Assembly (NCBI GenBank): GCA_001950395.1
Contig: BDLO01000001.1
Span: forward strand, 719,979-783,978
From: Coriobacteriaceae bacterium EMTCatB1
GTDB taxonomy: Bacteria > Actinomycetota > Coriobacteriia > Anaerosomatales > Anaerosomataceae
DNA: 64,000 nt
Direction: 5' to 3'
In this document: positions 12,394 through 37,676 of the stretch, in pieces
Position numbering within the stretch: position 1 is the stretch's first letter
How the letters are laid out: each line of letters opens with the position of its first letter
Notes under the pieces: generated by a model
Seen by the model: only the letters and a program-made list of their open reading frames with translations
Database searches by the model: none
Told to the model about the DNA's origin: nothing
Made by a program: the position numbers and the translations under genes

Positions 12394-13602
12394 CTACGGG
12401 CGATCCTGCACCGCATCTCTCACCCGATCGAGGATCTCCTCGGCGATGCGCCACTTCGGAAGCGTCGGCATCTCTTCGGTGCCGTGGTGCGTCACGAACA
12501 CGACCCGATTCTCGCTCCCCCCGAACGCGCTCCCGTCGCTGACGTCGTTCGCCACGACGAGGTCGAGATGCTTGTCACGAAGCTTCTTGTGCGCATGCTC
12601 GAGGAGGTCGCCCGTCTCGGCGGCGAAGCCGACGAGCACCATGCGCCCATCGTTGAGGGCACCGACCTCCGCGAGGATGTCGGGGTTGCGTTCGAGCTCG
12701 ATGCTCCGAGGTGCGTCATCCTTCTTGATCTTCTCACCAGCGAAGTTCGCCGGCCTGAAGTCCGCCACGGCAGCCGCAGCGATGACCACGTCGGTCTGTG
12801 CGAGGCGCGCGAGCACCGCATCGCGCATCTCGAGCGCGGTCGTCACGCGCACGACGGTGACGCCGAACGGGTCTGGCAGGGATACGGGTCCTGTCACGAG
12901 TGTGACGACGGCGCCGCGGCGCGCGGCGCGCTCGGCGATGGCGAAGCCCGTCTTGCCGGATGAGCGGTTGCCGATGAACCGCACGGGATCGATGGGCTCG
13001 TACGTCGGTCCGGCGGTCACGAGGATGCGCAAGCCCGCGAGGTCCTGGGTGCACCGCGCTTCACGCTCCACCACCTCACCGATGGTCGCGACCTCTGCGA
13101 GCCGCCCCTCGCCCACCTCGCCGCACGCGAGCTCGCCGATACCCGGCTCCACGATGATGAAGCCGCGTGACCGCAGAAGCTCGACGTTCGAGCGTGTGGC
13201 CTCATCGCGCCACATGTGAACGTTCATCGCGGGCGCGATCACGATCGGCGCCTCGGTGGCGAGTACCGTCGTCGTCAGCATGTCGTCGGCCCGCCCGTGC
13301 GCGATCTTCGCGATGACGTTCGCCGTGCACGGAGCGACGCACAGCACATCGGCCTCCTCGGCCAGTGAGATGTGGTGCACCCGCGCGGCCGGCTCGTCAT
13401 CCCACAGCGAGACCGCGACCGGCTCGCCCGTGAGCGTCCTGAAAGTCAACGGAGCGACGAACCGGGTGGCTGCTTCCGTCATGACGACCTTGACACGGAG
13501 ATCTCGGCGTTGCAGGTCACGCACAAGCTCGCACGCCTTGTATGCGGCGATGCAGCCCGTGACACCGAGAACGACCGTTGGCGCGTCGGCGCTTCGTCCC
13601 AC
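12394..13602 (-). CDS. coaBC: Bifunctional phosphopantothenoylcysteine decarboxylase / phosphopantothenate-cysteine ligase
   Basis: A 402-residue fusion carrying two steps of coenzyme A synthesis. The N-terminal CoaC flavoprotein has GCIAAYKA, the PAMN motif (PAMNVHMW) and the active-site Cys loop ELACGEVGEGRL. The C-terminal CoaB ligase has TAGPTYEPIDPVRFIGNRSS and the KIKK motif. Length is normal for the family. GTG 13602 was chosen for its GGGAGG ribosome site 6 nt upstream; an ATG at 13617 in the same frame is the alternative. tRNA-Pro lies 65 nt downstream. Confidence 0.93.
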   Translation of the reverse strand: MGRSADAPTVVLGVTGCIAAYKACELVRDLQRRDLRVKVVMTEAATRFVAPLTFRTLTGEPVAVSLWDDEPAARVHHISLAEEADVLCVAPCTANVIAKIAHGRADDMLTTTVLATEAPIVIAPAMNVHMWRDEATRSNVELLRSRGFIIVEPGIGELACGEVGEGRLAEVATIGEVVEREARCTQDLAGLRILVTAGPTYEPIDPVRFIGNRSSGKTGFAIAERAARRGAVVTLVTGPVSLPDPFGVTVVRVTTALEMRDAVLARLAQTDVVIAAAAVADFRPANFAGEKIKKDDAPRSIELERNPDILAEVGALNDGRMVLVGFAAETGDLLEHAHKKLRDKHLDLVVANDVSDGSAFGGSENRVVFVTHHGTEEMPTLPKWRIAEEILDRVRDAVQDRP

Positions 13603-13733
13603 GCAGACCTCCCTCATACCGACGCATCTAGGATACACCGTACCGTGTCACCCCACACGTCGCCAACGCCCGCACGGTCCGCTGGGCGTTCGGGAATGAA
13701 CAGGCATGAGAGCCTGACGAGACGGGAGGCGCC

Positions 13734-17169: not shown

Positions 17170-18387
17170 TCAGCGCCTGCGAGCTCGACCTCGACCTCTG
17201 CTTGAGCTGAAGACCGTCCGTACCGACTTCATCGCGCTGCGGCCCGGGTTCGGGACGATGCGGCCCTCAGCGTAGTCGAACCCCTCTGCGTCGTGGCACT
17301 CCAGCACGGAGCCGATGGCGAGCTCGATCTCGCGGAACACGCCGTGCTCTTCTGGCGCGAGCAGCGAAAGCGCCATGCCGGACTTGCCTGCGCGGGCCGT
17401 GCGGCCGATGCGGTGCACGTAGTCTTCCGGGGTGTTCGGCAGGTCGTAGTTCACCACGTGGCTGACGTCGGCGACGTCGATGCCGCGCGCGACCACGTCG
17501 GTCGCCACCAGCACGCGCACCCGCCCGCGCTTGAGCCCGTCGAGCGCGCTTTGGCGCTGGCCCTGCGAGCGGTCGCCGTGGATGGCCGCGCTTTCGATGC
17601 CACTCCTGCGAAGCGCGGTGGCAACGCGGTCGGCGCGGTGCTTGGTGCGCGTGAACACGATGACGCGCTCGGGACGGTGGCGCTCGATCAGGTGCACGAG
17701 GAGCTGCGTCTTCTGCTGAGCGCTCACGGGATACACCCGCTGCTCGATCGCCTCGATCGGCGTGGTGGCGGGTGCGACGTCCACGCGCACCGGTTCGTGC
17801 AGCGTCGAGCCGACGATGCGCAGCACCTCCGGCGTCATCGTGGCCGAGAACAGCAGGTTCTGGCGAGCTGCGGGCAGCACGGCGATGATTCTGCGGACCT
17901 GCGGCCAGAAGCCCATGTCGAGCATCCGGTCGGCTTCGTCGAGGACGAGCGCCTCGACGTGCGTGAGGTCTGCAGCGCCGCGCTCCATCAGGTCGATGAG
18001 GCGGCCCGGGGTCGCGACGAGCACGTCCACGCCTCGCCTGAGCGCCTTGAGCTGCGGCTCGTAGCCGACGCCACCGTACGCGACGGCCACACGATGGCCG
18101 GTGTGCGCGGCGGTCTGCTGCGCGACCTCGGCGATCTGCAGCGCCAGCTCGCGCGTCGGCGTCACGATCAGCGCGCGCGGGCCACCGGGGGCCGCCTGGA
18201 CGCGCTGCATGATCGGCAGCACGAAGGCCGCCGTCTTGCCCGTGCCGGTCTGAGCGCAGCCGACGACGTCGCGGCCTGCTAGGACGTGCGGGATGGCTTC
18301 ACGCTGGATGGGGGTCGGGCGCGTGTGACCCATGGCTGCCACGGCCGCAAGCAGGCGTGGCGAAAGACCCAGGTTGTCGAAACTCAA
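17170..18387 (-). CDS. DEAD-box ATP-dependent RNA helicase
   Basis: A 405-residue helicase with the full motif set: Q motif (PTPIQREAIP), motif I AQTGTGKT, Ia PTRELA, II DEAD (LDEADRMLDMGF), III SAT, and VI HRIGRTARAG. It ends in a short Arg-rich tail. It unwinds RNA duplexes in ribosome assembly, RNA decay or cold response. TTG 18387 is taken as the start because GAAGGAG lies 6 nt upstream and the protein then begins SFDNLGLS, as usual for the family. It is monocistronic. Confidence 0.92.
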   Translation of the reverse strand: MSFDNLGLSPRLLAAVAAMGHTRPTPIQREAIPHVLAGRDVVGCAQTGTGKTAAFVLPIMQRVQAAPGGPRALIVTPTRELALQIAEVAQQTAAHTGHRVAVAYGGVGYEPQLKALRRGVDVLVATPGRLIDLMERGAADLTHVEALVLDEADRMLDMGFWPQVRRIIAVLPAARQNLLFSATMTPEVLRIVGSTLHEPVRVDVAPATTPIEAIEQRVYPVSAQQKTQLLVHLIERHRPERVIVFTRTKHRADRVATALRRSGIESAAIHGDRSQGQRQSALDGLKRGRVRVLVATDVVARGIDVADVSHVVNYDLPNTPEDYVHRIGRTARAGKSGMALSLLAPEEHGVFREIELAIGSVLECHDAEGFDYAEGRIVPNPGRSAMKSVRTVFSSSRGRGRARRR

Positions 18388-18573
18388 CGAGTCTCCTTCC
18401 TCGTGCGCCGTATCAGGTCGCACTGCGGGCAGACGCAGTCGTCCTGGCACATCACGAGGAAAGCGACGGACTACCGAGTCTTGGGTGGGCGTCCGCTCGA
18501 CGCGGACGCTGTCATTGGAAGCATCATACACCCTTCAGCGCGCAATAGCGAGCAGGTCGGCCGCACGACCCCC

Positions 18574-18817
18574 TCAGAACGTGAAGACTTCGTGGAAGAA
18601 GACGATCCAGTAGCGCACGACGACTGCAGTCACCAGGAGCAAGCCCGCCCAGACCAGCGCCTTCTTCCACCGAGGGATGCGGCCCGGCCATGCCACCGAA
18701 TGCCTGCCAGCGGGTCAGGATCCGGCGACCCAGCAAGAAGGCGAGGACTAGCCATAGGACCGTCGTCACGGCAAGCACGATGTAAAGCGTTGGCAAGAAG
18801 GGCAAGCGGTCCTCCAT
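18574..18817 (-). pseudogene. Small two-helix membrane protein with a frameshift
   Basis: From ATG 18817, which has a GGAGG site, the frame reads MEDRLPFLPTLYIVLAVTT and encodes one transmembrane helix, then loses membrane character after about residue 44. In another frame from about 18668 the sequence continues as PRWKKALVWAGLLLVTAVVV and ends at a TGA at 18574, giving a second helix. One missing base near 18670 explains both. It is the last gene of the RHS-linked block, so a decayed immunity gene is a reasonable guess. Confidence 0.5.
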
Positions 18818-18826
18818 CAGACCTCC

Positions 18827-18994
18827 TCAGAAGGAGATCATCTCGTATGCGAAAAGCGCCCAGTCGGCCCCCATGCTGGTGATCGGATCGAACGGTTGGA
18901 GGCTGGCGACGGTCATTGCCGGATGCGCCCGGGGATCCTCATCGTCTATGTCGCCCCGATCGACCCTCGCCGAAGTGATCCACGTGTAGGTCAC
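18827..18994 (-). CDS. Short hypothetical protein, possibly 5'-truncated
   Basis: The frame is open from a TAG at 19031 down to a TGA at 18827. The only usable start is GTG 18994, giving 55 residues ending in DPITSMGADWALFAYEMISF. In-frame codons just upstream of the GTG would encode a hydrophobic helix (AACAILAVCAS), which suggests that the true N-terminus has been lost. The next gene begins 10 nt further on with its own ribosome site. No family recognised. Confidence 0.35.
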   Translation of the reverse strand: MTYTWITSARVDRGDIDDEDPRAHPAMTVASLQPFDPITSMGADWALFAYEMISF

Positions 18995-19030
18995 GGAAGC
19001 ACAAACCGCGAGAATCGCGCAGGCAGCGTC

Positions 19031-19220
19031 CTAAAGTCAGGGGTCGACGGATAAACGAGATGGGCTCCTCTTTCGTGGTGTCGTTCTGACATCACGGAGA
19101 AAGGAGTCCTCTCGATGACAGCCCAGGGCGGCAATGGCCGCGGATATGCTCGGATCGCGCACGCGCAGCGCCGCAGCCGCCACGCGAGCCGATCTGGCGC
19201 CACGACTGCCGCGAACGCCC
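19031..19220. other. Intergenic stretch, no confident gene
   Basis: On the plus strand AAAGGAG precedes an ATG at 19115, but the frame runs antisense to the 143-residue membrane protein gene and has no family features. On the minus strand the stretch is open but without a start. It is probably remnant cassette DNA. Confidence 0.3.
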
Positions 19221-19652
19221 TCACGAGACCTCCCCAGAGGCCCCGTGTTCCTGCTTTCCATCCTCGCGAGGCGAATCTTGCGAAGCGCTCGCAGCGCGCT
19301 TCTGCTCGATCACAGCCAGTGCCATCAGGCCGCAAGAGAGGACTATCGGTGCGAGAATCATCGGCCAACCCAAAATGAACGCTAGCGTCATAGGCGAGAC
19401 CGCGAAGCTCACCGCTAGCGTCGTTGCAAGCATAAGCAACACGGCACGGCGCATCTGCCCAACAGGCGATATGCCGCGCTCTCGCGCACGCGAAATGGAG
19501 ACAGCTATGAGGAAGCAACCGAGGACGAACAGTGCGACAGCCAGAATGGCACTCAACGGCGAATCCGCAACCGGCCGGTACCAGACATCCACCTGGGCGA
19601 GGCCGATCTTCGCCCTGGTCAGCAGCATCTCGAGCCCAGCGGGTGAGTCCAC
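19221..19652 (-). CDS. Membrane protein, putative RHS immunity-type
   Basis: About 143 residues with three or four hydrophobic segments (SAILAVALFVLGCFLIAV, a second around AVLLMLATTLAVSFAV, a third around MILAPIVLSCGLMAL) and a charged tail. GTG 19652 follows GGAGG by 7 nt; an earlier GTG at 19691 is also possible. It is the last of three small membrane protein genes that follow the RHS tip at 20361. No family recognised; the immunity role rests on position only. Confidence 0.5.
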   Translation of the reverse strand: MDSPAGLEMLLTRAKIGLAQVDVWYRPVADSPLSAILAVALFVLGCFLIAVSISRARERGISPVGQMRRAVLLMLATTLAVSFAVSPMTLAFILGWPMILAPIVLSCGLMALAVIEQKRAASASQDSPREDGKQEHGASGEVS

Positions 19653-19706
19653 TTCCAAACCTCCAAATCCCAGGAACGCCCCGCGACGCACTGTTCGCCG
19701 GATGGC

Positions 19707-19934
19707 TCAGTACCTTGTCAACTCCCAGACAGCGAGTCGAATCGACGCGAACGCGCAGATGGTCATCCACAGACCGATCATAGCGGCGCCGACACCTGCC
19801 ATGATGCGCCCGCCACGCGCTCGCTTGGACACCTCGCTGGCCTCAATGGCGGCTCCCGCCGACGAGATCTTCCTTCCTGCGAGCACGAGCGCGGCTCCTG
19901 CAACGAGCCACGCGAGGTCAAGCACGTCACGCAT
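19707..19934 (-). CDS. Small membrane protein, putative RHS immunity-type
   Basis: 75 residues with two transmembrane helices (LAWLVAGAALVLAG and GVGAAMIGLWMTICAF) separated by a basic loop. ATG 19934 overlaps the stop of the preceding gene by 8 nt, so the two are coupled. No family recognised. Confidence 0.55.
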   Translation of the reverse strand: MRDVLDLAWLVAGAALVLAGRKISSAGAAIEASEVSKRARGGRIMAGVGAAMIGLWMTICAFASIRLAVWELTRY

Positions 19935-20340
19935 GGTTTCCCCTCTCCTCATGCGCAAGGTCGCCAGAGACTGCCTCGTCAGGCGAGCCGTCGGCTCGGT
20001 CCGCAGTCTGAGCTGCTCGCTCGCTCGTCTTGCTCGCGATGCTCTTGACACGAGAATCGTAAGCCCACTGAAGAAGCAAGGCCCACGCGAGCCCCTGTAC
20101 GCAGCCGCGGACAATCGTCGCAAGGGTCTCGCGCAGCGGATAGCTGAACAGCCAGCCGCTCCACACCGCGTAGGCAGCATACACAGGCAGGACTCTGAAC
20201 ATCACGGCCACCGGTCTCGCGCGACGCCAGATCGCCCACACGACGATTGCGAAGACGACCTGCGCTGCGACCGCTGCACCCTTCATGGAAATCTGATGCA
20301 AATGCAGCCACTCGTACGTCGGCGCCATCGCGTGCATCAC
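19927..20340 (-). CDS. Membrane protein following an RHS tip, putative immunity protein
   Basis: 137 residues with three or four predicted membrane helices (VAAQVVFAIVVWAIW, VLPVYAAYAVWSGWLF and CVQGLAWALLLQWAY) and an acidic, hydrophilic C-terminus. It starts 20 nt after the stop of the RHS tip at 20361. This is the position of immunity genes in polymorphic toxin loci. No known family. Confidence 0.6.
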   Translation of the reverse strand: MMHAMAPTYEWLHLHQISMKGAAVAAQVVFAIVVWAIWRRARPVAVMFRVLPVYAAYAVWSGWLFSYPLRETLATIVRGCVQGLAWALLLQWAYDSRVKSIASKTSERAAQTADRADGSPDEAVSGDLAHEERGNHA

Positions 20341-20360
20341 CCTCTCAGCGTCTGATGGCC

Positions 20361-21173
20361 CTAGTAGTACGCAAGCTCATATGCTGCGAGACCCCAAGAC
20401 ACCCCGCACGAGACGACGCCGGCCGCAACGCCGAGGCTTGTCAACAATCCCGGGCCGCTAACGGAAGGCATGTATGAAGAAGCGCCCAGCAGCCGATTCG
20501 TGCGGATGTCTTGTTCGCTGATGTAACCGGATTCTACACGCATCTTCGTGACGTCAGAGGCCATCATGCTCAAAAGGCCAGACGCCGCCTGAAGGACAGC
20601 AGCATCCGCCACCAAGACCAGCCCAACGCCGACTTCAGATGTTGCCATGCCGGCGACGCCGACAACCAACGACGCTGTGCTGAGCAAGGCAGATGCTTCG
20701 TACAGGGCGCCTGCAACCCTGTCGAGCTCTGCGCCTACGGCCATGTATTGCAGGGCTTGTGCCATCCCTGCCCGGGCTTGCCGCTCGAGTTCGCTCATGG
20801 CCCTGGCAAGCCTGTACGCAGCTTCTCGCTCGATACGCGCCGCGTTCCTCGCCTTCCATACAGCCAAGCGCTCTTTGGCCGTCCTCATCCAGTATGCCGC
20901 CATCGCTCTCCAGAACGTGGCGTTCCCTCGGCTGCGTCTGGCCATGCCGATCATGTGCGCCCGGTTGTGCGCCGCGAGCTCGTAGCTGTCCACGTGGCCG
21001 TCGTCGTCCCATATCGCGATCGCCCCCGTGGGATCGCTGCCGTCCACCGGGTCGCCTAGGCAGTAGGCGTAGCGGTTGAGCGTGCGGGGGTCGCCTGCAG
21101 CGGGCGGCGCGGGGTCCGGCGCGAGGAAGCGGCCCACGGCGGGGTCGTAGTACCGTGCAGGCAGGTAGCACAG
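20361..21173 (-). CDS. Orphan RHS C-terminal tip (left block, cassette 3)
   Basis: A 5'-truncated RHS frame. The RHS-associated core is cut down to CYLPARYYDPAVGRFLAPDP and NRYAYCLGDPVDGSDPTGA; a unique tip of about 225 residues follows. The tip is helical and Arg/Ala-rich in its first half and ends with long hydrophobic helices, which could suit a membrane-active effector. No ribosome site or proper start precedes the core, so it looks like a silent cassette. Three small membrane protein genes follow. Its first 30 tip residues (WDDDGHVDSYELAAHN) resemble those of the broken tip at 24115. Confidence 0.75.
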   Translation of the reverse strand: MCYLPARYYDPAVGRFLAPDPAPPAAGDPRTLNRYAYCLGDPVDGSDPTGAIAIWDDDGHVDSYELAAHNRAHMIGMARRSRGNATFWRAMAAYWMRTAKERLAVWKARNAARIEREAAYRLARAMSELERQARAGMAQALQYMAVGAELDRVAGALYEASALLSTASLVVGVAGMATSEVGVGLVLVADAAVLQAASGLLSMMASDVTKMRVESGYISEQDIRTNRLLGASSYMPSVSGPGLLTSLGVAAGVVSCGVSWGLAAYELAYY

Positions 21174-21222
21174 TGTCTCGGACGGGAGCGCCCCGGCCCG
21201 AGAGCATTCGGCAGACCTTGCG

Positions 21223-21525
21223 CTAGTCGTGCGACGGGTCAGGGAACACCTCCTCAGGACCCGAGTCAGGATCGACCCCGTAACGCATCAACCACAGACC
21301 ACCCAAGACCAAAAGTCCCCAGCCGAGCGTCTTCAGCACGTCGTCCCATCCGCCCGCGACAAACGCCAGGTAGCCCGTCGGAATCCAAGCGGGCGCGAGT
21401 GCGCACGGAAGCGCCTCGACCGCCTCCCTGACGGTCTTGGCACGAGCCACCCTCCACAGAGCCCAAGCACACGCAGCGAAGACCAGCAGCACGTAGCAGA
21501 GGAAGACCCGTTCGCTGTCGTTCAT
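21223..21525 (-). CDS. Small membrane protein, second gene behind RHS tip 2
   Basis: 100 residues with two or three hydrophobic segments (FLCYVLLVFAACAWALW, AWIPTGYLAFVAG and LGWGLLVLGGLWLM) and an acidic C-terminus. ATG 21525 lies 1 nt after the previous stop. Putative immunity or accessory protein by position; no family recognised. Confidence 0.55.
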   Translation of the reverse strand: MNDSERVFLCYVLLVFAACAWALWRVARAKTVREAVEALPCALAPAWIPTGYLAFVAGGWDDVLKTLGWGLLVLGGLWLMRYGVDPDSGPEEVFPDPSHD

Positions 21526-21526
21526 C

Positions 21527-21952
21527 TCAGTCCCCTCTCCGCGAATGTCCGTGGCCGGTAGCGCGTGAAACGGCCCACGTCGCCAGTGCTGCTGCCCCGA
21601 AGGGGAAGAACCCGATCACGACCGATCCTTTGACGGTATTCCAGAAGTCGCCTTGATACGCCGAGAAGGATTGGGCGAACAACGCAGGAGACATGCACAG
21701 GACCGGGAACATCAACGCCACCCACCAGCGCATGAAGGTCAGCCCTCTCCATAGGTCCTCCACATACGGAAGCTTCAAGTCCGTCAGCTTGGGTCCGCCG
21801 AGGCTTGGGTCACGGATCCACCTCCGTCGCTTTCCATGAGAAGCAGCCACGAAGATCAGGCCCCAGTAGATGCACCCAGGTACCACTGATATCAGGTAGA
21901 TGGCCGGCCCCAAGTCCAGAAAACCGAAGACCAGGTCCGTCGTCGTGCCCAT
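21527..21952 (-). CDS. Membrane protein following RHS tip 2, putative immunity protein
   Basis: 141 residues starting at ATG 21952, 10 nt after the RHS tip stop. It has two hydrophobic segments at the N-terminal side (GPAIYLISVVPGCIYWGLIF) and two more later (WWVALMFPVLCM and VVIGFFPFGAAALATWAV). No family recognised. The position fits an immunity gene. Confidence 0.55.
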   Translation of the reverse strand: MGTTTDLVFGFLDLGPAIYLISVVPGCIYWGLIFVAASHGKRRRWIRDPSLGGPKLTDLKLPYVEDLWRGLTFMRWWVALMFPVLCMSPALFAQSFSAYQGDFWNTVKGSVVIGFFPFGAAALATWAVSRATGHGHSRRGD

Positions 21953-21962
21953 CGCGCTGCTC

Positions 21963-22928
21963 CTATTCCATCTCTCTGTTGATCGCCTCGGTTGCGACAT
22001 ATGCATTCAGCCCGCCCCAGGCCGACAGGGCTCTTTCCGCTGGCGCGCCAGAGACGCCGAGGAACGACGTACCGGTCTGCGCGATATCGAACAGAACTGC
22101 GCCCCGGCTGCAGTAGCCTCGGTCTGCCCGCAGCCAGTCAGCCCAGGCCATTCCCAGAGATGGCAGGGCGGCTAAGAGCGCGACTGTGGCCGCTATCGGC
22201 ACGCTGATCGGTGCTGCAGCGACAACCAGAAGAACCGTGCCAGTCGCAATCCCCCCAATGAATGCGCTGTCTTTGGCCACATCCCAGGTGCCGTCACGCT
22301 CCCAGTCGTCTACCCAGTTCCAACGCCCCTTGGTCCTCAGCCACTCCCTCTGCCAGTAATCATACCCTTCCGGCCTCTGCCAGCCCAGAAGCGTCCAGCG
22401 CATCGAGGGCTTGATCGTCCCAGGGTCTGCAGCACGCCTGGCGCGGACCAGGTGGTCGGCCCGGCGATACGAAGAGCGCCAGCCTCTGTCACCCCGGCGA
22501 CGCTGGCGCACGACCTCTGAGCGGACAGCCATGCCGAACGCGACGCCATCGGGGTGTTCGGCCCATATGTCTGCGATCGCCCCCGTGGGGTCGGTGTGGT
22601 CGACCGGGTCGCCCAGGCAGTAGGTATAGCGGTTGAGCGTGCGGGGGTCGCCTGCAGCGGGCGGCGCGGGGTCGGGCGCGAGGAAGCGGCCCACGGCGGG
22701 GTCGTAGTACCGTGCAGGCAGGTAGTACAGGCCGGTCGAGGCATCGTAGTAGTAGCCGCGGTAGCGCAGCGGGTTGTGGGAAGCGATAGGTGCGGACCCT
22801 GCTGCGCGATGATCCTGCTGAGAATCGTGCGTCAACACGCAGCTCCTCACCAGCTGCGGCATAGCACCGGATACGGGCGTACGCGGGTAGGCGTACATCA
22901 GGCTGTACCTGGCTATGGCATCACCCAC
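21963..22928 (-). CDS. Orphan RHS C-terminal tip (left block, cassette 2)
   Basis: The recognisable core is NPLRYRGYYYDASTGLYYLP, RYYDPAVGRFLAPDP and NRYTYCLGDPVDHTDPTGA, shared almost base for base with cassette 3. A GTG at 22928 could start it, but the ~55 residues before the core are not RHS-like. The tip (about 190 residues) contains a Trp/Arg-rich part (WQREWLRTKGRWNWVDDWER) and then two long hydrophobic stretches (IGGIATGTVLLVVAAAPISV). The upstream gene's stop overlaps the start. No enzymatic motif recognised. Confidence 0.75.
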   Translation of the reverse strand: MGDAIARYSLMYAYPRTPVSGAMPQLVRSCVLTHDSQQDHRAAGSAPIASHNPLRYRGYYYDASTGLYYLPARYYDPAVGRFLAPDPAPPAAGDPRTLNRYTYCLGDPVDHTDPTGAIADIWAEHPDGVAFGMAVRSEVVRQRRRGDRGWRSSYRRADHLVRARRAADPGTIKPSMRWTLLGWQRPEGYDYWQREWLRTKGRWNWVDDWERDGTWDVAKDSAFIGGIATGTVLLVVAAAPISVPIAATVALLAALPSLGMAWADWLRADRGYCSRGAVLFDIAQTGTSFLGVSGAPAERALSAWGGLNAYVATEAINREME

Positions 22929-24060
22929 TGAACGTGGACTCGAGGGGGCGCGAAGGACTCCCCGGTCGTTCGAAGACCACGAACGCCTCGTTGTCGCACG
23001 CACCGACGACCAGGGCGACCATGCGGTCCGCGACGAGACCCGGTGCTTCTGGCTCGATCTTCGGGTCGCCTGATACCGCTGCCTCTGCTCGAACAACGAG
23101 CGCTACGAGCGGGAGCGGCCACAGCGAGCCCCGCAATGCGGATGCCAGTGCTTCCGGTTCCTGGATCGGGATGCGGCCGGAGACCGCGCTCTTGCTCGAG
23201 AGGAGCTCGCATTCTGCGCGGCCCCTGAGAATCCATAACTCGTTGTGCGAACCAGCATAGCTGGCGCTTAGATGCTCCGCGATCCTATCGTGTGCGATTC
23301 GCGCAGGTATCATGATGAACATCGACCTTTGGTAATTGGCGCGGGGCTGCACGATCGGTCTTGCTATCCAGGGAGCTTCGAGCCGCTCGGCACGCACCGG
23401 AGAGACTGACCCGGGCAGGAATGCCGTGCATCGCCCCTCTACGAGACCGGAGCGGACAAGCACGGCGCCCCAGTCCTCAGGAAGCAGCGTCAACACGTTC
23501 TTCGCGTATTCGCGCGCGTGCGCTGTGCATGGCACCGCCTGGAGTTCGTCCTCTGCGGCAGCGGCCAGCTCCGATTCGAGCGCTTCGCGACGACGGTTGC
23601 CGTACACCCGCTTGAGAACGCGCTCACCGTTTTCGATCTCGACGCTGTCCGAATGAGGTTGACCCTCTGGCGGTACGTGCCAGACCCCGACCCCGCCGTG
23701 GTTATCTGTCACGATCTTGCCGTAGCCGAGCACGCCGACGAATGACTCTGCGACCACTCGCTGACCGAACGCACGCGCAATCAAGGAGATGTTCCGCTTG
23801 ACGTACCAGCGCGGATCGTTCACCCGTCCCGACAGGAAGACCACACTGAGCGGCACAACCACGCTCGCGACCACGGCAGCTGCCGGACGCCTCGCGAAGA
23901 GCAGCATGCCTCCGCCAGCCAACAATCCCGCGACAACACCGACAGCGGCACGTTTGCGCAGACCGAGACGAATCATCGCCGGCGCCAAGAACATAGGCGT
24001 CAGTCCCAGGAAGACCAGGATTACGCCAGCTGCAGTCAGCATGTCAGGTTCACCGGCCAT
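22921..24060 (-). CDS. Membrane-anchored protein between RHS tips
   Basis: 379 residues. The first ~100 contain three or four transmembrane helices (AAGVILVFLGLTPMFLAPAM and others), and the rest is a large soluble domain with a C-terminal hydrophobic strand (LPLVALVVRAEAAV). No conserved motif recognised. It lies directly downstream of the broken RHS tip at 24115 and so holds the immunity-gene position, but it is larger than typical immunity proteins. Confidence 0.6.
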   Translation of the reverse strand: MAGEPDMLTAAGVILVFLGLTPMFLAPAMIRLGLRKRAAVGVVAGLLAGGGMLLFARRPAAAVVASVVVPLSVVFLSGRVNDPRWYVKRNISLIARAFGQRVVAESFVGVLGYGKIVTDNHGGVGVWHVPPEGQPHSDSVEIENGERVLKRVYGNRRREALESELAAAAEDELQAVPCTAHAREYAKNVLTLLPEDWGAVLVRSGLVEGRCTAFLPGSVSPVRAERLEAPWIARPIVQPRANYQRSMFIMIPARIAHDRIAEHLSASYAGSHNELWILRGRAECELLSSKSAVSGRIPIQEPEALASALRGSLWPLPLVALVVRAEAAVSGDPKIEPEAPGLVADRMVALVVGACDNEAFVVFERPGSPSRPLESTFSG

Positions 24061-24114
24061 ATGACATCCCTTCTGTTAGCCCCCAAGATGCCACCGCACA
24101 CGAACGGGCGAGCG

Positions 24115-24530
24115 TTACGGACGAGCACCTCCCTCCGCATGGGCCGCAACAAGAGCCATCCATTGCACTGTTCCCGCAGCAGCCGAAATCCTGCTACCCC
24201 AGAGCGACACGTCGTCGGCGAAACGGTCCCTGTCGACAGTCGCTCTCGCGGCCCGTGCCTCAGCCGCTAGAACTTCCCATGCCGCGTACCTCCGCGCCTG
24301 CGCCGCTAGAGATCGCTTCGCGGCCCACGCCCTCTGGCGCTCGATCGCGACCACGCGCCACCGCTTCTTGGCGGCGCCCTTCGAATGGCGGTAGTTGTGC
24401 GCCGCGAGCTCGCAGCTGCCCACGTGGGCGTCGTCGTCCCACAGCGCGAGCCCCCGTGGGGTCGGTGTGGTCGACCGGGTCGCCTAGGCAGTAGACGTCG
24501 CGGTCGAGCGTACGGGGGGTCGCCTGCGGC
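24115..24530 (-). pseudogene. Broken orphan RHS tip (left block, cassette 1)
   Basis: The RHS core end (DPRTLDRDVYCLGDPVDHTD then PTGA) is followed by a tip homologous to the start of cassette 3. Two frameshifts interrupt it. An extra G in a G-run near 24513 separates AAGDP from PRTL. A base missing near 24450, relative to cassettes 2 and 3, throws the tip into another frame that continues as SCELAAHNYRHSKGAAKK to a stop at 24115. The core is shortened to about 80 nt. This cassette cannot be expressed as a normal tip. Confidence 0.7.
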
Positions 24531-24539
24531 CGACGCGCC

Positions 24540-25802
24540 TCACGCCGCCCCTGCCCCGGGCCGCACCATGTCGTGCCAGGCGCGGAAGCGGGTCGCGTGC
24601 CGGCCGCGCACGACCACCAGGTGGTTGCCGAGCGGCGCGCGCAGAAGCTCCCCGAGGTCGCCGTCGTCGACACGGACCGTGACCTGCGTGCGGCACAGGT
24701 CCTCCGCCTCCCCTGTAGCCACGATCTCGCCCTCCGCGATCCACGCGCGCTCGAGCATGGCGCCGCCGATGCGCACGAGCGTGACCGGCCCGAGCGGCAT
24801 CGCGCCTTGGATGCCGACGCCCAGCCCCGACTCGAAGTGGGAGCGCAGCCGGTAGCTCTCCACGATCGAAAGCGGCACGGTGCAGTGTGCGAGGACGATC
24901 TCCTGCCCCTGCTCGTCGACGCGGGCCGGATTCGCCATCCACGGCGTGGCGCCCACGAGGTGCTGCGCCCACAGCATCGCGATGGTGCTCGGCACGTCGC
25001 CTTCGCACCCGGCGATGACGCCCTCGTCGATGAGCGCGGCAAGTGCAGCGCAGCCGGTCGTCCTCGACCTCAAGACGAGGTCGAAGCAGCGCACCGTGAG
25101 CGCGTCGAGGTCGTCTTCGCGCACGATACCGCGCAGGGCCGCAACGACCCGGCCGGCTTCCAGCAGGTCGTGCTCGGTCGGCTCGACGCACGCGCGTGCG
25201 CCCGTGCGCAGGCGGTCGGCCTCGGCCAGCGCGGCGGCATCTGGCGTCGCAGCCACCGCGTCGAACAGCCGGGCGATCGGGACGTCCACGAGCTCCGGGC
25301 CCCACGACGACCGCACGGTCTGCGCGTCCGGCATGCTCGCCACGAGCCAATCGGACGGCTCCCCCACCCGCCCGACGCGCGCCCCCGCGAGCACGCGGGC
25401 CACCGCCACGCCCTCGGCGGCTTCCGCAAGCGTGCGTCGGCCGGCGTCGTCAGCAGGCCCGCCGAGGTAGACGACGCGCCCGGCGGACCCGTCGCGCTGC
25501 AGCCGAGCGAGCGTCTCGAGCGACGCCGGAAGGGAGTTGTTCGACGGGTGCGCGATGAGCAGCACGGGATCGACCACGCCGCGCGACCGGAGCTGCTCGA
25601 CGGCCCCAAGCACGATGCCTTCGGTGCCGCCCGTAACCACGAAGAACGCGACTGGAAGCTCGCCTGCCTCCTCGATCGAGCCGAGGCGCGTGCCGCCCGC
25701 GTCCTCGAGCAGCGGCCCGTACGGCCCCACGATGCGCTCGACAGTGGCCGGATCGTCGGCAAGCACCGACGCCACCGGAAGGTACCCGAACCTCACGCCC
25801 AT
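24540..25802 (-). CDS. L-fucose/L-arabinose isomerase-like protein
   Basis: 420 residues with the layout of the FucI/AraA-like fold: an N-terminal substrate-contact domain (FFVVTGGTEGIVL, LIAHPSNNSLPASLETLARL) and a C-terminal domain with HCTVPLSIVE and GLGVGIQGAMPLGPVTLVRI. Such proteins are often annotated as fucose-isomerase family without proven activity; many are not isomerases. No sugar genes lie nearby. ATG 25802 has GGAGGAGG 5 nt upstream. A cytosolic enzyme is likely, but the substrate is unknown. Confidence 0.7.
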   Translation of the reverse strand: MGVRFGYLPVASVLADDPATVERIVGPYGPLLEDAGGTRLGSIEEAGELPVAFFVVTGGTEGIVLGAVEQLRSRGVVDPVLLIAHPSNNSLPASLETLARLQRDGSAGRVVYLGGPADDAGRRTLAEAAEGVAVARVLAGARVGRVGEPSDWLVASMPDAQTVRSSWGPELVDVPIARLFDAVAATPDAAALAEADRLRTGARACVEPTEHDLLEAGRVVAALRGIVREDDLDALTVRCFDLVLRSRTTGCAALAALIDEGVIAGCEGDVPSTIAMLWAQHLVGATPWMANPARVDEQGQEIVLAHCTVPLSIVESYRLRSHFESGLGVGIQGAMPLGPVTLVRIGGAMLERAWIAEGEIVATGEAEDLCRTQVTVRVDDGDLGELLRAPLGNHLVVVRGRHATRFRAWHDMVRPGAGAA

Positions 25803-25857
25803 CGTTCCTCCTCCGTGCTCGTGCAACGCATTTTCGCGCGCACCCGTAACCTCGCGC

Positions 25858-25949
25858 CCGGCGCGAGCGTTTCTTCTCGCGTGCCAGCATCCCCCTCAGC
25901 TGGCACTCCTTCGTGCCGGCCCTCCCCTCGGCCGGCACGCTCCTTTTCC
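25858..25949 (+). ncRNA. 6C-type small RNA candidate (two C-rich-loop hairpins)
   Basis: Two perfect hairpins stand in a row on the plus strand. The first is GTGCCAGC/GCTGGCAC (25881-25906) with loop ATCCCCCTCA. The second is a 10-bp stem CGTGCCGGCC/GGCCGGCACG (25912-25939) with loop CTCCCCTC. TCCTTTTCC follows as a terminator tail. The actinobacterial 6C RNA is defined by two stem-loops whose loops carry runs of C, so this is a good structural match. A TAACCT -10-like box lies at 25847. On the minus strand the same DNA could end transcription of the GGDEF/HD-GYP gene. Confidence 0.5.
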
Positions 25950-25952
25950 GCG

Positions 25953-28109
25953 TCACATCGGCGTCTTGCGCCCCATGAGCGCGATGAACGCTTCGGCGAT
26001 CTCCGGGTCGAACTGCGAGCCGATGCAGCAGTCGATCTCGTGCAGCGCCGCAGACGGCGACATCGCGAAGCGGTACGGGCGCTCGGAGGTCATCGCGTCG
26101 AACGCATCGCACACCGCGAGCAGGCGCGCCTCGAACGGGATGCCCTCGCCGCGCAGCCCGTCGGGATAGCCCGTGCCGTCGTACCGCTCGTGGTGGTGCC
26201 GCACCCACGGCGCGATGTCGTCGAACCCGCTCGATCGCACGATGCGCTCGCCGAGAACGGAGTGCTCGCGCACGTGCATGACCTCGGCGGCCGTGAGCGG
26301 ACCGCGCTTGCGCAGCACCCTGTCAGACACGCCGATCTTGCCGACGTCGTGCAAAAGCGCGGCGATCTCCAACCGCCTGACGTGCTCATGCGGCAGCCCG
26401 AGCTCGCGCCCGAGCTCGGTCGCAAGCAGCGCGACGTTCTTTGAGTGGAACTGCGTGGCCGCATCGCGCGCATCGACCGCGACCGCGAGGGCGCGCACGG
26501 CGCGCACCTGGGTCTCGACCTCGAGCTGCTCGATCTCGTCTTTAGCGTCGAGGGCGGTGATGACCTTCGGGTCGTACACGGCGAATCCGCCCCGGTCGTG
26601 CCGCTTCGCCCAGAAGAGCGAGCCTGCAGCACACCGCATGAGCTCGCCACGGCCCCCCGCGTGCACCGGGTACAGCGCGATGCCCGCAGTCGCCTGCAGC
26701 GGTGCGCCTGACGGCCCTTTCACGGCACGGATCTCCGAGAGCGCGCGCACAACGAAGCGTTCGGCGTTCTCGAGCGACGCTCCGCCCATGATCACGGCGA
26801 ACTCGTCGCCGCCGAGCCGTCCGACGACGTCTGAAGAGCGCACGGCGCACGCGATAGCGTCGCCCGCCGCCTTGAGGGCCGCGTCGCCCGCTTCGTGCCC
26901 GCACTCCTCGTTCAGGCCCCTGAAGCCGTCGATGTCGAACATCACGAGCGCGACGGTGCCGCCGTTGCGATCGGCGATATCGAGCTCGGTCTGAAGCGCG
27001 TCCTGGAACGGCCGGTACGCGTGCAGGCCGGTCACCGGGTCTGTCGAGAGCATCGTGAGCAGCCGCCGGTTCTCAAGCACGGCGAGCGCCTGCCGCACGG
27101 CCACGACAGCAGCGATCGCGCCGCCGAGCACGAACAGCGGGCCGCGGTAGCCGTCAGGCACGCTCGTCGCACCGGCCGCTATCGAGAAAACCACCGAAGC
27201 GGTAAGGCCGAGCGGGATCGCGGCCGCCACCGCCACGTGCGACCGCGGCATCCGCTGCGGCAGCGGCAGCACGCCAGCGGACGGTCGCACCCCTTCGTGC
27301 AGCCGCGCCAGCATGCCAGCGAATGCCAGCGACATGCCTGACATCCACGCGACCTCGATGGCGGCGTCCCACGCGCTCGTCGGCCGAACCATGGTTCCGT
27401 ACAGCCACGCGGGCCAGAGCGTCGTCGCCAGCGCATACACCCACAGACCGCCGAGCACCCGGCGGAACCACGGCTCGGGCGAGGAGGCGACATCGAGCCC
27501 GAAGTTCGCGGCGACGGAGATGAGGAGCAGCGCCCCGAGACCGCTGTACGCCGCAGCAGCGACGCCTTGCGCGCACGTGAAGACGCCCTCGCGGGAGAGC
27601 GGGACGACGACGAGCACGAGCACGACCGCGACCACGGAAAGCGCCACACCGACCGCGTCGATGCCGTGCCGCACCCGAGCGAGCGTGCTGTATGCGCGCA
27701 GGTCGGCGGCGCGGGCGAGCGCAGCGATCATCATGACGGCCGCTGCCACCGTGAGGACTTCGGCAGCGACAGGCCATCCGGACTCGATGCGCGCGCCGAG
27801 CACGACGCGCGCGCTCACGAGCGTCTCGCTCGTCGCGACGAGCACGATCGCTGCAGCGAGCGCGCGCAGCAGCCGACGCTCATGCGCGGCCGCCTTGAGC
27901 GCGATGAGGACCGACGAGATCCCGGCCGCCCAGAACGGCAGCAGGTACGCGGCCTGACGCACGGATTCCAGGCGCTGGTCCGGAGCGGACACGCTCAGCA
28001 CGAGATAGGTGCCGGCGAGCAGGAGCCACAGGGCGACGAGCGGCGCTATCGGCCGCACAGATGCCGTGCGCGCCTCTGGGCGCTGCGCTGCGGTCGCCTC
28101 AGCGTCCAT
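25953..28109 (-). CDS. Membrane-bound GGDEF and HD-GYP cyclic-di-GMP protein
   Basis: 718 residues. The N-terminal ~330 carry about ten hydrophobic segments that form a membrane sensor module. A GGDEF domain follows (about 350-510) with an intact active site (GRLGGDEFAVI), then an HD-GYP domain (about 535-718) with LLHDVGKIG and HHHERYDGTGYPDGL. The first makes cyclic-di-GMP and the second degrades it, so one protein could set its level in response to a membrane or ligand signal. The signal is unknown. It is transcribed divergently from the PfpI-like gene. Confidence 0.9.
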   Translation of the reverse strand: MDAEATAAQRPEARTASVRPIAPLVALWLLLAGTYLVLSVSAPDQRLESVRQAAYLLPFWAAGISSVLIALKAAAHERRLLRALAAAIVLVATSETLVSARVVLGARIESGWPVAAEVLTVAAAVMMIAALARAADLRAYSTLARVRHGIDAVGVALSVVAVVLVLVVVPLSREGVFTCAQGVAAAAYSGLGALLLISVAANFGLDVASSPEPWFRRVLGGLWVYALATTLWPAWLYGTMVRPTSAWDAAIEVAWMSGMSLAFAGMLARLHEGVRPSAGVLPLPQRMPRSHVAVAAAIPLGLTASVVFSIAAGATSVPDGYRGPLFVLGGAIAAVVAVRQALAVLENRRLLTMLSTDPVTGLHAYRPFQDALQTELDIADRNGGTVALVMFDIDGFRGLNEECGHEAGDAALKAAGDAIACAVRSSDVVGRLGGDEFAVIMGGASLENAERFVVRALSEIRAVKGPSGAPLQATAGIALYPVHAGGRGELMRCAAGSLFWAKRHDRGGFAVYDPKVITALDAKDEIEQLEVETQVRAVRALAVAVDARDAATQFHSKNVALLATELGRELGLPHEHVRRLEIAALLHDVGKIGVSDRVLRKRGPLTAAEVMHVREHSVLGERIVRSSGFDDIAPWVRHHHERYDGTGYPDGLRGEGIPFEARLLAVCDAFDAMTSERPYRFAMSPSAALHEIDCCIGSQFDPEIAEAFIALMGRKTPM

Positions 28110-28193
28110 TCGCCGCCTTTCGTCGGTCGAACGAGCGTGTCAGAGCCGTGCCATACTATAGCGTACACGAGGACAAGGGCTTTGGAGGGCACG

Positions 28194-28703
28194 ATGAAGC
28201 GCGTTGTCATGGTGGTCGCGCCGCAGCAGTTCCGCGACGAGGAGTACGAGCACCCGCGCGAGGTGCTCCGTGCGCGCGGCGCCGAGGTCGTCACCGCGAG
28301 CACGCACGCTGGCGAGTGCATCGGCCGGTTCGGCGCGAAAGCGCAGGCCGACGCGGCGATCGGCGAGGTCGACCCCGAAGAGTTCGACGCCGTGGTCTTC
28401 GTCGGCGGAGCGGGCTCGGCGGTCTACTTCGACGACGAGCGCGCGCACGAGCTCGCCCGCAGCATCGCGCAGCGCGGCGGGGTGGTGGCAGCCATCTGTA
28501 TCGCGCCGAGCACGCTCGCGCACGCGGGGCTGCTCCGCGGCAGGCGAGCGACCGCCTACCCGACGCAGAAAGACGACCTCGTCGCACACGGCGCGACGTG
28601 GTCCGACGGCCCGGTCGAGGTCGACGGGCGCATCATCACCGCCAACGGCCCGGACGCCGCGCGAGCGTTCGGTGAGGCCGTCGCCGACGCACTGGGCCTG
28701 TAA
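28194..28703 (+). CDS. DJ-1/PfpI-family protein
   Basis: 169 residues of the class I glutamine-amidotransferase-like fold. The nucleophile elbow is AAICIAPSTLAHAGLL with the conserved Cys, and the acidic partner residue lies in the N-terminal EEYEHPREVL segment. Members act as deglycases, chaperones or stress proteins. ATG 28194 has TTTGGAGG 7 nt before it and a TACTAT box lies at about 28173. It is followed after 17 nt by a rubrerythrin gene, which suggests a shared oxidative-stress unit. Confidence 0.88.
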   Translation: MKRVVMVVAPQQFRDEEYEHPREVLRARGAEVVTASTHAGECIGRFGAKAQADAAIGEVDPEEFDAVVFVGGAGSAVYFDDERAHELARSIAQRGGVVAAICIAPSTLAHAGLLRGRRATAYPTQKDDLVAHGATWSDGPVEVDGRIITANGPDAARAFGEAVADALGL

Positions 28704-28720
28704 GACCGAAAGGAGCGACG

Positions 28721-29257
28721 ATGCAGCTGAAGATGTACCGCTGCCGCATCTGCGGCGAGACCTACCTCGGGTACGAGGCGCCCGAGAACTGCCCGTTCTG
28801 CGGTGCGCACAAGGAGTACCTGGAGGCGCCCGAGAAGTACGACCCGGCCATCAACGCGGTTGCGCTCACCGAAGTCGAGCGGGCCGACCTCGAGGCCTCG
28901 ATCGAGCTCGAGCGCTCCAACACCCGCTTCTACCTCGGCATGGCCGAGCGCAAGGACAACGACACGCTCCGCTCGGCCTACAAGCGCCTGGCGCGCATCG
29001 AGGCGGAGCACTGCTCGCTGTTCTGCAAGCTCGCCGGCGTCCCCAAGCCCGAGGACCTCACGGTGCCAGGCGAGACCACCGGTTCGTGGGCGAGCGACAT
29101 CGAAGAGTCGTTGCGCCGCGAGAACCGCGCGAGCTCGCTGTACGCGACCTTCGCCGAGCGTGCGACGAACCCCCGGCTGAAGGAGGTCTGGGACGCGGTG
29201 AGCGCCGTGGAGGCCGACCACATCACGCTCGACGAGCTCGCGAAGCAGTACCTGTAG
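28721..29257 (+). CDS. Rubrerythrin with N-terminal rubredoxin-like site (reverse rubrerythrin type)
   Basis: 178 residues. The N-terminus holds a rubredoxin-like four-Cys site (CRIC and CPFC, 12 residues between pairs). The rest is a four-helix ferritin-like di-iron domain with ExxH-type repeats (ARIEAEHCSL and AVEADHITLD). In anaerobes such proteins reduce hydrogen peroxide with electrons from rubredoxin or NADH systems. AAAGGAG precedes ATG 28721. Together with the PfpI-like gene it supports an anaerobic or microaerophilic lifestyle. Confidence 0.88.
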   Translation: MQLKMYRCRICGETYLGYEAPENCPFCGAHKEYLEAPEKYDPAINAVALTEVERADLEASIELERSNTRFYLGMAERKDNDTLRSAYKRLARIEAEHCSLFCKLAGVPKPEDLTVPGETTGSWASDIEESLRRENRASSLYATFAERATNPRLKEVWDAVSAVEADHITLDELAKQYL

Positions 29258-29281
29258 CGCATCGCAGCCCGTGAGTCACCG

Positions 29282-30049
29282 CTACAGCTCCTTGCGCGCG
29301 AAGAGGACCGCGGCGCCGGCCAGCGCTGCCGCCGCGATGAGCGCTGTGGCCGCAAGCGGCCACGAAAGCGGCGGACGATCGCCTGCGAGCAGCGCGCCCG
29401 GGGCGCCGATGAGGCCTGCGGGGGTGTGCTCGACCGCCCAGCGCGAGAGCGACGCGATGCTGATGGCGGCGTAGACGCCGATGCCGACGCCGGCCGCGCC
29501 GCTCGGGCTTTGCACAAGCACAGACGCGAGCGTCATCACCGCCACGAGGAAGAGCGCCCACGCGAGCCACGCCGCCGTCGGCTGCACGATCGGCCGCAGC
29601 GGCGCCTCGCCGAACACGGCGAGCGTCACGGCCCAGGTGGCCGCAGCGCCGAGGAGCGTCGTGGCCGTCACGAGCACGGCGTTCGCAGCGGCCTTCGCGA
29701 GCACGAACGCGGGGCGTGAGACGGGCTTCGTGAGCACCATGATCGCTGTGCCTGACCGCACCTCCGAGGCCACCGTCCCGCCGAGCATGATCACGAGCGC
29801 GAAGGTGACGATCTGGGTGAGGTTCTTCACCCACTGCGCGTAGGCGTCCTTCCAGGTCGGTTCCGGCAGGCTGATGACGGCGCCGCCGAGCTGCTCGCTC
29901 GACATCGATCGCAGGATCTCCGGCATGACCTTGGCGAGCACGGGACCCGTGAGCGCGAACACCACGACGATCGACGGCAGCACCCAGATGCGCCAGGTGC
30001 GCGCGATCTCGCGGAGCTCCTTGAGGAAGAACGGCCGGAACCCGCGCAT
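29282..30049 (-). CDS. ABC-2-type transporter permease
   Basis: 255 residues with six hydrophobic segments (WVLPSIVVVFALTGPVLAK, VTFALVIMLGGTVAS, AAANAVLVTATTLLGAAATW and further). The VRSGTAIMVLTKPVSR stretch after the second helix is typical of ABC-2 permeases of the NatB/YhaP sort. ATG 30049 overlaps the ATPase stop (TGATG), so the pair is a coupled exporter. Substrate unknown. Confidence 0.85.
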   Translation of the reverse strand: MRGFRPFFLKELREIARTWRIWVLPSIVVVFALTGPVLAKVMPEILRSMSSEQLGGAVISLPEPTWKDAYAQWVKNLTQIVTFALVIMLGGTVASEVRSGTAIMVLTKPVSRPAFVLAKAAANAVLVTATTLLGAAATWAVTLAVFGEAPLRPIVQPTAAWLAWALFLVAVMTLASVLVQSPSGAAGVGIGVYAAISIASLSRWAVEHTPAGLIGAPGALLAGDRPPLSWPLAATALIAAAALAGAAVLFARKEL

Positions 30050-30975
30050 CACGACGCTCTTTCCACGAGCTCGACGAACACGTCTTCGAGCGTGGGCTCG
30101 ACGGTCTCGAAGCGCACGAGACCGGCGCCTGCTGCCGCCACGATTGCGGGCACGTCGCGCTGCGCGGACCCCGGGTCGCTCACGGCCGCCTCGATGCGCG
30201 CGCCAACGCGCGTGACGCCGCGGCACCACGCCGCCGCTGCCACCGCTCGCTCGACGCGCTCGACGTCGCCCGCGACCTCGAGCGCGACCTTCCGGCCCGC
30301 ACGCGACCGGATCTCGTCGACGCTCGCGTTCGCGACGACGCGTCCCCGGTCGAGGATCGCGACCTCATCGCACACTCGCTCGGCGTCCGAAAGGATGTGC
30401 GTCGAGAAGAACACCGTCGCCTTGCCCGCCAGCGCCTCGATCATGTCGAGGACCTCCTTGCGGCCGATGGGGTCGAGCGCCGAGGTCGGTTCGTCGAGGA
30501 CGAGCAGCGCAGGAGCGTTCATGAGCGCCTGAGCGATGCCGAGCCGCTGCTTCATGCCGCGCGAGTAGCCGCCGATGCGCGTGCGGACGCCGGCAAGCCC
30601 GGCGGCCTCCAGAAGCACGCCGGCGCGCTTTTTCGCGACGCTGCTTTCAAGGCCGAAGAGCGACGCCACGAACGCGAGGTACTCCTCCCCCGTCATCCAC
30701 TCGTAGAAGGCCGGCACGTCCGGCAGGTACCCGACGCGCGACGACACCTCGAAGCCTGCGCTCGTCACCTCGCGGCCGAGCACCCGCACCTCGCCTGAAG
30801 TGGGGCGCGCAAGCCCCGTGAGCAGCCGGATCGTCGTCGTCTTGCCTGCGCCGTTCGGGCCGAGGAAGCCGAAGATGACCCCGCTCGGGACGCGAAGGTC
30901 CACGCGATCGAGCGCCACGACGTCGCCGAAGCGCTTCGTCACACCAGCAAGCTCGACGGCGGCATCAGTCGTCAT
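30049..30975 (-). CDS. ABC transporter ATP-binding protein
   Basis: 308 residues. Walker A GPNGAGKTT, Q-loop, signature YSRGMKQRL (a common variant of LSGGQ in this subfamily), Walker B LLVLDEP and the H-loop STHIL are all present. A C-terminal ~90-residue extension is typical of the DrrA/NatA-type exporters. It partners the permease downstream. Its start overlaps the end of the preceding small membrane gene by 11 nt. Confidence 0.9.
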   Translation of the reverse strand: MTTDAAVELAGVTKRFGDVVALDRVDLRVPSGVIFGFLGPNGAGKTTTIRLLTGLARPTSGEVRVLGREVTSAGFEVSSRVGYLPDVPAFYEWMTGEEYLAFVASLFGLESSVAKKRAGVLLEAAGLAGVRTRIGGYSRGMKQRLGIAQALMNAPALLVLDEPTSALDPIGRKEVLDMIEALAGKATVFFSTHILSDAERVCDEVAILDRGRVVANASVDEIRSRAGRKVALEVAGDVERVERAVAAAAWCRGVTRVGARIEAAVSDPGSAQRDVPAIVAAAGAGLVRFETVEPTLEDVFVELVERAS

Positions 30976-31285
30976 CGCTCGCCTCGCCGCTCCCGTAGAG
31001 CATCTTGGCTGCGCGCGCCATCGTCTCGCCGGCCACGCCAGCGCCAGGCTCCTTTGCAGCGACCTCGGGAGTCCGCCCGACGGCCAGGAACACGACGGCT
31101 CCGATGAGGTTCACGAACAGGATGATGAGCACCCACGGCCACTTCTTGCCCAGCCTGATGCGCTCCGCAGGTGTGCGCGCGAGCACGATGAGCGCCGCCG
31201 CCTCCACGCCGATCTGCACCGCGCCGAGCACGACGAACGCCGCTCGCACCGCTGTCGGAAGGTCCGCCCACGAGGTCTGCATCAT
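30965..31285 (-). CDS. PLDc_N-type small membrane protein
   Basis: 106 residues with two transmembrane helices (VLGAVQIGVEAAALIVLA and WVLIILFVNLIGAVVFLAVG) separated by a basic loop. This hairpin is the phospholipase-D-nuclease N-terminal domain found at the start of cardiolipin synthases and before ABC-2 exporters. Here it stands alone and is coupled to the ABC genes. Two tandem ATGs (31285 and 31282) follow AAGGAG; the second has better spacing. Confidence 0.75.
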   Translation of the reverse strand: MMQTSWADLPTAVRAAFVVLGAVQIGVEAAALIVLARTPAERIRLGKKWPWVLIILFVNLIGAVVFLAVGRTPEVAAKEPGAGVAGETMARAAKMLYGSGEASDDD

Positions 31286-31343
31286 CACGCGCTCCTTCGG
31301 TCGCCCGCGTCGCTCAGCGGGAACGCCTGCAGTTCCGGGCCCG

Positions 31344-33642: not shown

Positions 33643-33716
33643 GGCGCCCCCGAAAACGTGACGCGCCCTCGAGCCGACGGCACGGGGCGCGCGCGGATCC
33701 CGACTGCCGTCGAGCG

Positions 33717-33974
33717 CTACTTGTAACTCTCGGCGGTCCGGACGTAGCCGATGTCGCCGTTCGCGATCTCCTCGAGCGCGATCGACAGCGGCTTGGTCTT
33801 GGTGAGCTGCGCGATCTGCGGCGTCTGGATCGACTGCAGCGCGAGCGTGGCCTGGTCGCGGATGCCGCGGACCATGTCGTTGATCTGGCGGGCGCGGCGC
33901 GCGGCCACGATGCACAGCGTGTACTTCGAGTCGACCTTCGACAACAGCAGGTCGATGTCCGGTTCGATGACCAT
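33717..33974 (-). CDS. rpoZ: RNA polymerase omega subunit
   Basis: 85 residues. The pattern SKYTLCIVAARRARQINDMV matches the omega core and KTKPLSIALEEIANGDI the conserved middle motif. Omega helps assemble and stabilise the beta' subunit. The ATG follows the gmk stop without a gap (TAGATG), with GGAAGG upstream. The gmk-rpoZ order is common in bacteria. Confidence 0.93.
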   Translation of the reverse strand: MVIEPDIDLLLSKVDSKYTLCIVAARRARQINDMVRGIRDQATLALQSIQTPQIAQLTKTKPLSIALEEIANGDIGYVRTAESYK

Positions 33975-34568: not shown

Positions 34569-34579
34569 GCCGTGCTCGA

Positions 34580-34888: not shown

Positions 34889-34965
34889 CGTTCCTCCTCG
34901 TGACTCGAACCGACCGGACACGGCGCACCGTTCATGTCGGTGCGCGAAACGGACGCACGGCGAAG

Positions 34966-34994
34966 ATACTACCTGTGACCAGCGAGAATGCCAA
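34966..34994 (-). promoter_or_regulatory. Sigma70-type promoter before mihF
   Basis: Minus strand TTGGCA (34989-34994), 17-nt spacer, TAGTAT (34966-34971), about 78 nt upstream of the mihF start. The leader between contains a CGCACC/GGTGCG hairpin. It overlaps the space just after pyrE, so mihF need not depend on the pyr operon. Confidence 0.6.
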
Positions 34995-35003
34995 GCGATT
35001 TCG

Positions 35004-35585: not shown

Positions 35586-35591
35586 GCGGCC

Positions 35592-37657: not shown

Positions 37658-37676
37658 CTGCCTCGTCTTCCGCCCC

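Follow-up and report, generated by a model that had tools for sequence, protein, structure and literature searches.

The block of RHS tip modules at 18553..24536 of the analyzed window is best explained, with a probability of about 0.78, as a stranded and decaying remnant of an rhs locus that belonged to a second RHS polymorphic-toxin family, characterized by a FLAPDP-type core and here named family A. The window is the whole stretch of 64,000 nucleotides that was analyzed, corresponding to positions 719979-783978 of a closed genome of 1,838,614 bp (1.84 Mb), hereafter G000. The main rhs gene with an A core is missing from this genome, and the block was therefore classified as a stranded array rather than a complete rhs locus. 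The right block of the window carries tips of a different core type, FLTKDP (family T).

Tip modules and candidate partner genes

The block is located between a DEAD-box helicase gene (17170..18531, minus strand) and a conserved gene encoding 428 aa (24540..25826, minus strand). The 428-aa gene matches no curated family above the cut-off, and its working label 'FIST' was dropped after the family search gave no support. Every ORF of the block is on the minus strand. In the reading direction the order is tip C, a 379-aa ORF, tip B, two small membrane-type ORFs and tip A, after which small membrane-type ORFs continue to position 18524.

The three tips listed in the first-pass annotation at 20361, 21963 and 24115 are minus-strand modules with their 3' ends at these positions. 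Tip A (20361..21173) consists of a partial A-type core (~21024-21173), with the sequence CLGDPVDGSDPTGA, in-frame with a 220-aa tip, and has a WDDDGHVD loop after the core. Tip B (21963..22790) possesses a full 67-aa A-type Rhs-associated core (~22581-22784) in-frame with a 205-aa tip. In both modules the reading frame is open from the core through the stop. Tip C (24115..24535) is a relic, composed of a truncated A-type core (~24452-24535) and a frameshifted, shortened tip (24115-24426). Its core is reduced to the last ~28 residues, with only ATPRTLDRDVYCLGDPVDHTDPTG kept, and the start of the module lies within 5 bp of the stop codon of the upstream gene (24540). The core/tip joint of tip C differs by two bases from the type of joint present in tip A, and the frame thus changes where the core meets the tip, leaving a tip ORF of 102 aa. 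This is the single clear frameshift among the modules, so the proposed decay of the block by several frameshifts holds for tip C but not for the open tips A and B.

The core DNA of tip B is 93% identical to that of tip A, the two sharing a stretch of 158 nt at 94%, and 88% identical to that of tip C over the retained 86 nt. A 69-nt DNA family has three copies in the block, representing one shared core, and a degenerate FLAPDP DNA pattern gave two matches versus none in 100 shuffles. All three modules belong to one core clade, tip C being assigned only by its retained 86 nt. Hence the shared core that had been reported for the three tips is real at the DNA level, but the AVGRFLAPDP motif itself is present in two of them and is lacking in tip C. 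The Rhs_assc_core profile (TIGR03696) scored 76.7 bits with tip B and 31.3 bits with tip A, the latter just below the cut-off of 32.5; tip C has no match to this profile because it is truncated. The variable tip begins directly past the DPxGA boundary, the cores being near-identical and tips A and B dissimilar.

Among the 396 genomes searched, no convincing relative of tips A and B was found outside this genome, and their assignment as toxins therefore rests on position. Neither these tips nor the partner ORFs have anything convincing in Pfam or NCBIfam; weak matches to the OCRE and DUF1275 families were below the cut-off and were ignored. AlphaFold2 models, mostly helical, reached mean pLDDT values of 48.6 (tip A, 6-row alignment) and 44.6 (tip B, alone) and were too poor for use.

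The tips are followed by small membrane-type ORFs, as had been noted, which are recognized by position and hydropathy only and lack a family match, and by the longer 379-aa ORF. The latter (22921..24060, minus strand), located downstream of tip C, has three N-terminal hydrophobic segments and is a candidate partner or immunity gene, for which no relative with a convincing score was found in 396 genomes. A predicted membrane protein of 159 aa (21527..22006, minus strand) overlaps the end of tip B and is a candidate immunity protein by hydropathy and position; the adjacent 100-aa predicted membrane protein (21223..21525, minus strand) is a second candidate partner of tip B. Tip A is followed by a 137-aa predicted membrane protein (19927..20340, minus strand), a candidate immunity protein, and by two candidate partner genes: an ORF (19707..20180, minus strand; at most 157 aa) that overlaps the 137-aa ORF and has one hydrophobic segment, and a 156-aa predicted membrane protein with three hydrophobic segments (19221..19691, minus strand). 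Hydropathy also reveals a strong hydrophobic segment in both tips A and B, a single one in the tip part of tip B. Judging from hydropathy only, tips A and B are probably membrane-acting toxins, and the partner ORFs are probably membrane immunity proteins.

Two RHS core families with separate tips

FLAPDP and FLTKDP are separate RHS core families. The A core shares 55-60% amino acid identity with the T core of the right block, whose first tip begins about 23.6 kb away, which agrees with the distinct core and the separation of 24 kb originally described. In the tree of 70 cores, built on 72 columns only and poorly resolved in its inner order, 31 A-type cores are on one side of a branch with 100/100 support, apart from every T-type core. 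Three sequences from genome G066, narrowly scored as A-type beforehand, form a long branch on the T side. The families differ outside the core as well: within the N-terminal 800 aa of the full-length proteins, identity is 36-52% between A proteins and 29-30% between A and T proteins. Both core types were thus not found in one rhs family.

The search of the whole genome for cores identified five A modules in two loci, three in the block and the others at 1.3397 and 1.3411 Mb, as well as ~11 T modules and the only full-length rhs gene; the latter is T-type, encodes 2342 aa and terminates the right block. No full-length A-type rhs gene was found anywhere in the closed genome. The tip of the T-type full-length gene (L032 809-1310, just past the right edge of the window) resembles an NlpC/P60 peptidase by motif reading only (DCSGLV ... 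GHVAIVV); NCBIfam has no NlpC/P60 listing for it.

Among the relatives searched, 18 genomes other than G000 have A cores and 29 have T cores, and FLAPDP-type cores are thus not confined to the block; both types co-occur in at least eight genomes (G000, G002, G004, G013, G020, G035, G051 and G081). Full-length A genes are present in other genera: G005 (2452 aa), G010 (2495 aa), G020 (2589 aa) and G051 (2598 aa). In G010, further A tips are located behind the full-length A gene. The third A core of G010 (L194, around 13505-13642) stops inside the core and runs into transposase/HTH-like sequence. In G000, G001 and G002, a query with the N-terminal part of an A gene gave only weak matches at the T level; G003 had no match. 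A scan of public genome contigs gave distant Rhs genes only, mostly from other phyla, with at most 60% identity over the whole core.

The tip repertoires are separate as well. When 33 A tips and 43 T tips from these genomes were compared, homology at E-values up to 1e-3 connected 45 pairs, of which 28 are A-A, 16 T-T and one is a cross pair with homology only in the linker. With shuffled labels, the number of cross pairs averaged 22.2 with a minimum of 10, and none of 2000 shuffles was as low as one; the test is inflated by genome relatedness, and this figure is a description rather than a probability. After removal of the first 60 residues, 21 pairs remained with no cross pair (mean of 10.4 in shuffles; 0/2000). 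Within the window, no A-block tip matches any T-block tip. One orphan A tip from G002, a genome of the same genus as G000, has 52% identity over 208 aa with the tip attached to the full-length A gene of G005; no such counterpart was seen for tips A and B of the window. The 100/100 core split and a tip homology that almost never crosses it support the suggestion of two RHS families, whose tip repertoires are separate. The further suggestion that each family has its own donor pool stands for the separate repertoire, but not for a present-day working pool of A tips, which have no recipient in the genome.

Right after the core, 15 of 35 A-type tips, including tip A (window 20998-21024), have an acidic loop resembling those of EF-hands and dockerins (e.g. 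DVDGDGRLDSED, WDDDGHVDSYEL), as against 0 of 44 T-type tips, the pattern having been picked after the sequences had been seen. This loop may be a calcium-dependent pre-toxin element.

A-type loci in the sibling genome and the genus

In the sibling genome G001 the two flanking genes adjoin, as they do in G002, and the block is absent. The sibling DNA is 98.5% identical over 13.3 kb on one side (24536-37822) and about 90% identical on the other, and between the ends of homology at 24536 and 18553 it has a spacer of 112 bp. Translated in the sense of the tips, this spacer reads APYAYRTDAHGSVIDVSNSGPPPLARY, which corresponds to the final YD repeat preceding the A core. Since the scar has no match in Pfam or NCBIfam, we built a family-specific model with decoys. 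The A-type pre-core profile, built from 22 sequences scored as A-type, gave 23.3 bits with the spacer, as compared with maxima of 6.4 among 3000 random 142-bp pieces from both genomes and 7.5 among 2000 shuffles; the T-type profile gave 5.4, which is not above the decoys. By blastx, the spacer matches A-type proteins at E-values of 3e-5 to 4e-3 and T-type proteins at 0.56 and 0.98. The A-type fossil implies that an A-type rhs sequence occupied this site in the common ancestor, before the species split; either a main gene or a long orphan fragment may have stood there. The T block is retained in G001, and one of its orphan tips is exchanged exactly at the core end (window 48156-48636 versus L199 6688-7665). 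The T pool looks active, whereas the A pool does not.

The second A locus of G000, at 1.34 Mb, is about 3.3 kb long and is flanked by genes for an RtcB-type protein and a tRNA-dihydrouridine synthase. It is cleanly absent from G001 and G002, a pattern that two deletions and an insertion in this lineage explain equally well. At this locus (L031 8188-8330), an rhs relic, TATYAYDPWGNPTLVTGTAAIA, extends into the region where the synthase gene starts and lengthens the open frame of this gene. In G002, the site equivalent to the block is empty; a different gene cluster separates it from three A tips at a distance of about 4 kb, and the only one of these whose core is complete belongs to yet another sublineage of the core tree. 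A scar was sought in G000 at the spot equivalent to the G002 insertion, giving only a chance-level match, which was wrongly oriented (E 0.006). The core tree places the three A loci of the genus in different sublineages, so that it does not demonstrate the simple descent of one locus. Within this genus, the A family has thus undergone repeated gain, relocation or loss.

Origin of the block and relation to known rhs loci

The following course of events would account for these observations. The full-length A proteins, which in relatives measure about 2450-2600 aa, would form RHS shells, secreted or exposed on the surface, that carry a C-terminal toxin. By the established rhs model, homologous recombination at the conserved core would have replaced their tips, and the displaced tips would have remained downstream together with their immunity genes. 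The A main gene would then have been lost from this genome, stranding the three modules of the block and the two at 1.34 Mb. An array without a recipient would decay, as in the truncated and frameshifted tip C and in the sibling locus, shrunk to a scar of 112 bp.

The longest run of DNA identical to the T main gene is 12-15 nt for the A modules and 27-464 nt for the T orphans. Identical runs of 15 nt are too short for homologous recombination. For the A modules, the genome offers no recombination partner: its sole intact rhs gene is of the T type, and no run that it shares with them exceeds 15 nt. Evidence for the activation of an orphan tip by recombination into the main gene was obtained with 522 bp at 95% identity (Koskiniemi 2014, PMC3967940); the A tips have no such partner in a main gene and hence are currently not deployable by this route. 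The view of the block as a pool no longer in use is supported by the absent A main gene and the scar in G001, but its supposed greater age than the T block was not borne out.

Decay alone would not long maintain the open frames of tips A and B. A block kept for its membrane partner genes, acting as orphan immunity against the A-type RHS toxins of neighbours while no A toxin is made, would explain why consecutive partner-like ORFs exceed the intact tips in number; A-type rhs genes are common among relatives, and orphan immunity genes have been described (PMC10539506). We regard this as unlikely, as the entire block was lost in the sibling and both the 379-aa ORF and the tips have no convincing relatives in 396 genomes. 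It is rather unlikely, too, that the carrier-less toxin/immunity array is kept under selection as a bank of immunity genes against toxins of a family that the species has ceased to make, with recent differential loss between the siblings. A recent horizontal insertion in this lineage, in place of an inherited remnant, seems improbable: the GC content of the block (64.2%) is below that of the 25-47 kb flank (70.0%), the G002 site is empty and the A loci of the genus are in different sublineages, but the T block has a similar GC content (65.2%) and the A-type fossil at the exact site in G001 places A-type sequence there before the species split. Finally, the A tips are highly unlikely to serve the T-type main gene as a live donor pool, despite two RHS cores with about 55-60% amino acid identity in the same genome, given the 12-15 nt runs, the single cross-family pair in 45, confined to the linker, and the restriction of published rhs loci to tips of one core clade (PMC2935791).

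As a stranded remnant of an A-type rhs locus, the block resembles the orphan rhs-CT/rhsI modules of Enterobacteriaceae (Jackson 2009, PMC2935791; Koskiniemi 2014, PMC3967940) in that unrelated tips are joined to core pieces of different lengths, in the modules standing in a row with small partner genes and one core clade per locus, in lineages that are gained and lost, and in tip exchange at the core end, here seen in the T block. Enterobacterial rhs loci hold tips with cores of one clade only (Jackson 2009), and in the published model this is a consequence of displacement requiring near-identical core DNA (PMC2935791); the disjoint A and T tip pools are what this model predicts. Unlike the enterobacterial loci, where a same-clade main gene upstream serves as the recipient, this genome has no A main gene; it also belongs to a different group of organisms, and its partner genes resemble no curated immunity family. 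The modular RHS carrier, variable C-terminal toxin and nearby cassettes are likewise features of polymorphic toxin systems with standalone cassettes (Zhang 2012, PMC3482391); in contrast to these, tips A and B match no Pfam or NCBIfam toxin family, and the cassettes lack an active carrier.

The process is a known one, already described in enterobacteria, and the block is no new kind of system; its stranded state and the sibling scar make it a clean example. The loss of an rhs family can be followed in stages, from a full gene with tips in other genera, through tips only in this genome and G002, to a 112-bp fossil in G001. One genome displays two rhs families that swap tips only within themselves, and the longest identical run to the main gene is a simple measure that separates usable from stranded tips.
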